DNA from: Acidobacteriota bacterium
GTDB lineage: Bacteria; Acidobacteriota; Terriglobia; Versatilivoradales; Versatilivoraceae
Length of the DNA: 42,895 nucleotides
Reading direction: 5' to 3'
Assembly: GCA_009841055.1 (NCBI GenBank)
Contig: VXMN01000024.1
Location: forward strand, 1 to 42,895
Below are positions 12,248 to 12,361 of this stretch, piece by piece. A program made the position numbers and the translations under genes. A model generated the notes under the pieces. It had not been told where the DNA came from. It saw nothing but the letters and a program-made list of their open reading frames with translations, and did not search any database. Numbering within the stretch: the stretch's first letter is position 1; each line of letters begins with the position of its first letter.

Positions 12248-12361
12248 CTATCCCTGACGCTGCTTGCATTTGGTGTTGACGCAAATCACCCGTACCACCC
12301 CATGCCGTCGGATGATTTTTCATTTCGGACAAATTTTCTTGACCGATGCCCTGACTTTCAT
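12248..12361 (-). CDS. rpmJ: 50S ribosomal protein bL36 with in-frame TGA at a zinc-ligand codon
   Basis: The frame from ATG 12361 reads [13 protein letters not shown], then TGA, then [20 protein letters not shown] and RQG before TAG at 12248. Apart from the TGA at codon 14 it is a full-length 37-residue bL36, in the right place between infA and rpsM. Codon 14 is the second zinc-ligand cysteine of the C-x2-C-x12-C-x4-H/C finger, and the last ligand (residue 32) is cysteine rather than the usual histidine. TGA ends many other genes here, so it is not generally reassigned. Options: a nonsense mutation or base error (TGC/TGT to TGA), or selenocysteine at this position; a 10-bp stem begins 2 nt after the TGA. 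If read as a stop, only a 13-residue peptide results and the gene is a pseudogene. Confidence 0.85.
12323..12347 (-). other. Hairpin immediately downstream of the rpmJ TGA (SECIS-like candidate, 5' part)
   Basis: Counting from the nucleotide after TGA, positions 2-11 (AAATCATCCG) pair with positions 28-37 (CGGGTGATTT) as ten consecutive pairs including one U-G, closing a 16-nt loop ACGGCATGGGGTGGTA. The full structure spans about 12285-12320 with the TGA at 12320-12322. Bacterial selenocysteine insertion elements lie just after the UGA, but their apical loop usually starts at least ~16 nt downstream; here it starts at 12, so the fit is imperfect. The listed span is approximate. Confidence 0.3.

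Follow-up and report, generated by a model that had tools for sequence, protein, structure and literature searches.

An in-frame TGA at a zinc-ligand cysteine codon of rpmJ (bL36) in an Acidobacteriota draft genome resembles a selenocysteine codon and is very probably a private one-base change

In the ribosomal gene cluster of an Acidobacteriota draft genome, rpmJ (bL36) carries a TGA where a zinc-ligand cysteine is expected. Is this codon read as selenocysteine (Sec), is it an ordinary stop, or is the base itself an error of the assembly? The gene lies in a window of 42,895 nucleotides, the whole stretch of DNA that was analysed, and the source genome is a draft of 4.32 Mb in 374 contigs with a completeness of 93.8 %. 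In the sequence itself, one hit suggests the phylum, at 80.1 bits just short of its cut-off of 81.25 bits.

The gene was identified as that of bL36 by a sequence match over its full length and by its position, which is the usual one, with infA on one side and rpsM on the other (Table 1). Its reading frame is not uninterrupted, as codon 14 (12322-12320) is TGA, and the frame is intact downstream. The interrupted codon is that of the second zinc-ligand cysteine (ligand positions C11, stop 14, C27 and C32). Translation and the infA/rpsM context thus bear out the earlier note, which had described an rpmJ complete apart from this one codon. The fourth zinc ligand, position 32 (12266-12268), is Cys in all seven genus members and His in the other 23 of the 30 rpmJ loci read.

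Table 1 Features of the rpmJ locus (window coordinates)
Feature	Position	Strand	Remark
rpmJ (ribosomal protein bL36)	12248..12361	minus	37 codons and TAG stop, interrupted at codon 14
In-frame TGA, codon 14 of rpmJ	12320..12322	minus	TGC (28) or TGT (1) in the 29 other loci read
Predicted stem-loop just 3' of the TGA	12283..12318	minus	-17.0 kcal/mol, loop AUGGG
Codon 30 of rpmJ	12272..12274	minus	Second amino-acid change private to the genome (P30T)
infA	12369..12587	minus	Intact neighbour upstream of rpmJ; named by NCBIfam
rpsM (uS13)	11816..12208	minus	Intact neighbour downstream of rpmJ; named by NCBIfam

When the stops of the 20 ORFs listed in the ribosomal cluster were counted, TGA was found in ten, TAG in eight and TAA in two. 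TGA is therefore an ordinary stop in this cluster and not generally reassigned in this genome. The names of the cluster genes other than infA, rpsM, secY and rpmJ are those that we take from their translations; likewise, the ORF at 23769-24956 is presumably EF-Tu. The contigs of four congeners (G003-G006) start within this ORF, at window positions 23793-24024, perhaps since assembly was broken there by a second tuf copy. Short repeats reading DAQDAQDNQ are also seen in ORF translations on opposite strands, at about 4069-4130 and 8311-8350.

The genome contains selA (535 bits), selB (a frame of 638 aa; 337.6 bits), a tRNA-Sec with anticodon TCA (UCA in the RNA) and selD (338.9 bits), the full set that is asked of a genome with bacterial selenoproteins. 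The selD gene has one in-frame TGA, and the same situation was observed in all six congeners. A second TGA gene belongs to the Pfam Molybdopterin family (L102; a single in-frame TGA, flanked as in SCNRT-U-HAPSVVGL), and from its motif we take it to be a Sec-type formate dehydrogenase. Going by these usual genomic signs, the genome is predicted to decode UGA as Sec. The earlier note had regarded a lack of selB or selC as an argument against recoding; both genes are present and this argument does not apply. A survey counted four selenoproteins in three families in Acidobacteria, as given in the part of it consulted (PMC1794560).

With this machinery in the genome, the hypothesis that UGA 14 is decoded as Sec by SelB and the following hairpin, which would make Sec a zinc ligand in the ribosome, needed a test on rpmJ itself. 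Several features of the gene speak for it. The TGA is aligned exactly to the conserved Cys of the homologues, in a CxxU arrangement and with the downstream frame preserved, and a hairpin of -17.0 kcal/mol starts 1 nt past it, its loop following after 16 nt, a spacing within the SECIS range. Only 5.9 % of 4107 codons in the cluster precede 45 nt that fold as well. In addition, for a few selenoproteins (SaoB, SaoC and UXX-star proteins) metal binding by Sec is considered possible, according to the available part of PMC13188914.

The codon in relatives speaks against it. Codon 14 is TGC in each of the six congeners, and across the 30 rpmJ loci read there were 28 TGC, one TGT and a single TGA, that of the window. 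The sister comparison that had been suggested earlier thus counts against recoding. As stated in the part of PMC1088965 that we draw on, a selenoprotein family is asked to show the TGA in two or more different sequences, and none of the six congeners has it. On a literal reading, the rpmJ of a betaproteobacterium counts as a second sequence with TGA, and neither selA nor an over-cut-off selB was found in that genome. This rpmJ was the only match when 84,980 species genomes, which may not include the records of the window's own genome, were scanned for a bL36 pattern whose codon 14 is TGA or TGG. The pattern, with Y as last codon letter, recovers 24 of the 29 Cys-type rpmJ loci and so misses about one in six. 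The match lies in a metagenome-assembled genome (MAG; WQYV01000013.1, L051:7099-7212) with a single rpmJ found. This MAG gave no selA match, and its best selB profile match scored 104.8 bits (cut-off 242.25 bits); its completeness is not given, so that absence of Sec genes is unproven. A single additional TGA case, in a genome where neither selA nor selB is visible, agrees with what is expected of rare nonsense mutations or base errors. No viral contig with the genus-type rpmJ stretch was found.

The hairpin was tested against bSECIS limits in our own implementation of those in PMC13188914, as far as they are set out in the part of that paper used here: a loop of 3-9 nt with G within its first two positions, a stem of 4-16 bp, a spacing of 16-37 nt and an energy of at most -7.5 kcal/mol. 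No conforming hairpin was found after the window TGA, even when loops up to 12 nt were allowed, and none was found after the betaproteobacterial TGA. Conforming hairpins were observed at 15 of the 29 Cys-encoding rpmJ loci (two of the six congeners among them), in all seven genus selD genes scored (GUG triloop, spacing 33) and in the Molybdopterin-family gene, whose minimum-energy fold has a GGUCU loop at 19-23 nt. The selD genes L058, L059 and L060, which are from outside the genus, escaped the search expression and are unscored. As controls, a conforming hairpin followed 97 of 600 random codons, and in the 20 cluster ORFs it followed 4 of 29 Cys codons. These pass rates make the test a permissive one, and the window rpmJ fails it nonetheless. 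The selD hairpin of the genus (L052, L061-L066) has 10 bp and lies 33 nt after the TGA; its stem sequence varies and the pairing is kept.

The stability of the rpmJ hairpin was also compared with that of shuffled sequences. Against dinucleotide shuffles its z value was -3.59 for 45 nt and -1.28 for 68 nt. When only synonymous codons were shuffled (2000 sequences), z was -1.55 and 7.45 % folded as well, which is not unusual given the protein sequence. Stem-loops of -11.6 to -17.0 kcal/mol are predicted at the same site in the Cys-encoding congeners. The stability is thus mostly a product of the peptide's codons. An Rfam search of window positions 12000-12700 gave no match up to E=10.

Two further points weigh against Sec at this site. 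bL36 is present once per ribosome and, as a selenoprotein, would depend on inefficient UGA decoding. The site is structural and not redox, whereas 15 of 17 families with a Cys-to-Sec change were thiol redox proteins, according to the part of PMC1794560 at hand. Selenocysteine was rejected as the explanation on the sister codons, the SECIS test with its controls, and the betaproteobacterial TGA case that has no selA and no over-cut-off selB match. We nevertheless keep a very small probability for it: according to the available part of PMC13188914 the model does not cover every putative SECIS element and Sec is a possible metal ligand in a few proteins, and the machinery is present. The form that it could take, a very young Cys-to-Sec change in one species, upstream of a hairpin that rpmJ has genus-wide and with SelB acting through an unorthodox SECIS, is just as improbable. 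If true, it would be a non-catalytic selenoprotein in the ribosome and the first ribosomal protein to contain Sec, which would there bind zinc. Among the papers listed on L36, selenocysteine, selenoproteins, ribosomal proteins and zinc ligands, none deals with a selenium-containing L36 by title.

It is less probable still that the UGA is decoded as Cys, Trp or Ser by a further tRNA whose anticodon is UCA, for example tRNA-Cys(UCA) or an allo-tRNA. Such tRNAs are described in some bacteria and allo-tRNAs are reported in Acidobacteria (PMC7609411, in part), but the ten cluster ORFs that end in TGA stand against it. When the genome was searched with a UCA-anticodon pattern, a single one of the 14 matches fell within a tRNA called by ARAGORN, a tRNA-Leu(CAG); the pattern missed the genome's own tRNA-Sec, so that this test is weak. 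It is equally far-fetched that bL36 is supplied by an unlinked second rpmJ, with the interrupted copy as a relic: E. coli has a non-zinc second copy of bL36, YkgO (PMC10038286, in the part used), but each search of the source genome, of which about 6 % is missing, gave a single match, as did each of the six congeners at full length (G001 with one additional partial match at E=1). A second copy, for which the earlier note had proposed a search, was thus rejected.

The reading that we prefer is that the codon-14 TGA is a one-base change, private among the genomes compared, which would be read as an ordinary stop if the cell truly carries it; we consider this very probable. A cysteine codon would have become TGA by one base, in this genome only among those compared. 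The codon is seen in the sequence, no sister shares it and no SECIS after it conforms; that translation stops at the TGA is inferred. If the stop is real, the product would be a peptide of 13 residues and ribosomes would be made without bL36. Of the two accounts offered earlier, that of a nonsense mutation or base error is supported and that of a selenoprotein is not: all six congeners have a Cys codon, no conforming SECIS was found, and the betaproteobacterial TGA stands in a genome that gave no selA and no over-cut-off selB match.

When about 11 kb were compared with the nearest sister (G002), nucleotide identity was 94.7-95.8 %, and rpmJ differed by three silent changes, the C14-to-stop change and P30T. 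Among 10,261 compared sites, the window had 102 private changes and the nearest sister 95, so that one extra base in the window is unremarkable. Codons 14 and 30 of rpmJ both owe their private amino-acid change to a C>A on the coding strand. An excess of C>A artefacts in the assembly was considered and rejected, as C>A made up 9 of the 102 private changes in the window and 5 of the 95 in the sister, no large excess. In 12 other ORFs compared with the nearest sister the end codon was the same and no internal stop was seen in either genome; these were chosen from the ORF list, where mid-gene breaks could escape notice. Their unbroken state fits a nonsense mutation and a consensus error alike.

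Relative to all sisters, the protein is altered by 2 of the 3 private changes in rpmJ, compared with 5 of 35 when eight genes nearby are taken together (Fisher p=0.08; p=0.13 when the same contrast is made pairwise with G002). At most, this weakly suggests relaxed selection on rpmJ, as threonine at position 30 is also found in three other loci (L010, L011 and L029).

Whether the base is real is nearly balanced. A consensus base-call error in this 374-contig draft has close to an even chance, and the second private amino-acid change in the same short gene speaks against a pure base error. A true nonsense mutation in a dispensable gene has somewhat less than an even chance, and the lack of further decay of rpmJ speaks against it. 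As to dispensability, rpmJ of E. coli is counted among eight ribosomal protein genes that are not essential, according to the part of PMC10038286 used. When 396 genomes from the phylum were searched, 14 (G013 and 13 others) gave no bL36 match, 4 of them among the 338 good ones, and some of the 14 may reflect assembly gaps; of the 382 positive genomes, stops are visible only among the best matches listed. Because of base errors of the kind considered here, single TGA-bearing sequences were treated as candidates only in the Sargasso Sea selenoproteome study, in the part of it consulted (PMC1088965). As it stands, the finding is of little importance: it is either a base error or a stop, confined to this genome, in a ribosomal protein gene that can be dispensed with. 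It is a cautionary case, in that a TGA on a Cys codon, Sec genes in the genome and a hairpin mimic a selenoprotein; the sister sequences and the SECIS controls removed most of that case.

Two known systems can be compared with this locus. Bacterial CxxU selenoproteins that arose by a Cys-to-Sec change share with it the TGA at a conserved Cys, the Cys homologues, the Sec machinery and the downstream hairpin, but rpmJ differs from them in that no SECIS conforms, none of the six congeners has the TGA, and its zinc site is a structural one and not a redox site. From nonsense alleles and consensus errors of draft genomes the locus differs in that the stop falls on a cysteine codon, and so resembles a Sec codon, and in the Sec machinery of the genome. 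It is like them in that one private base makes a stop in a gene that is otherwise intact and whose sisters are intact.
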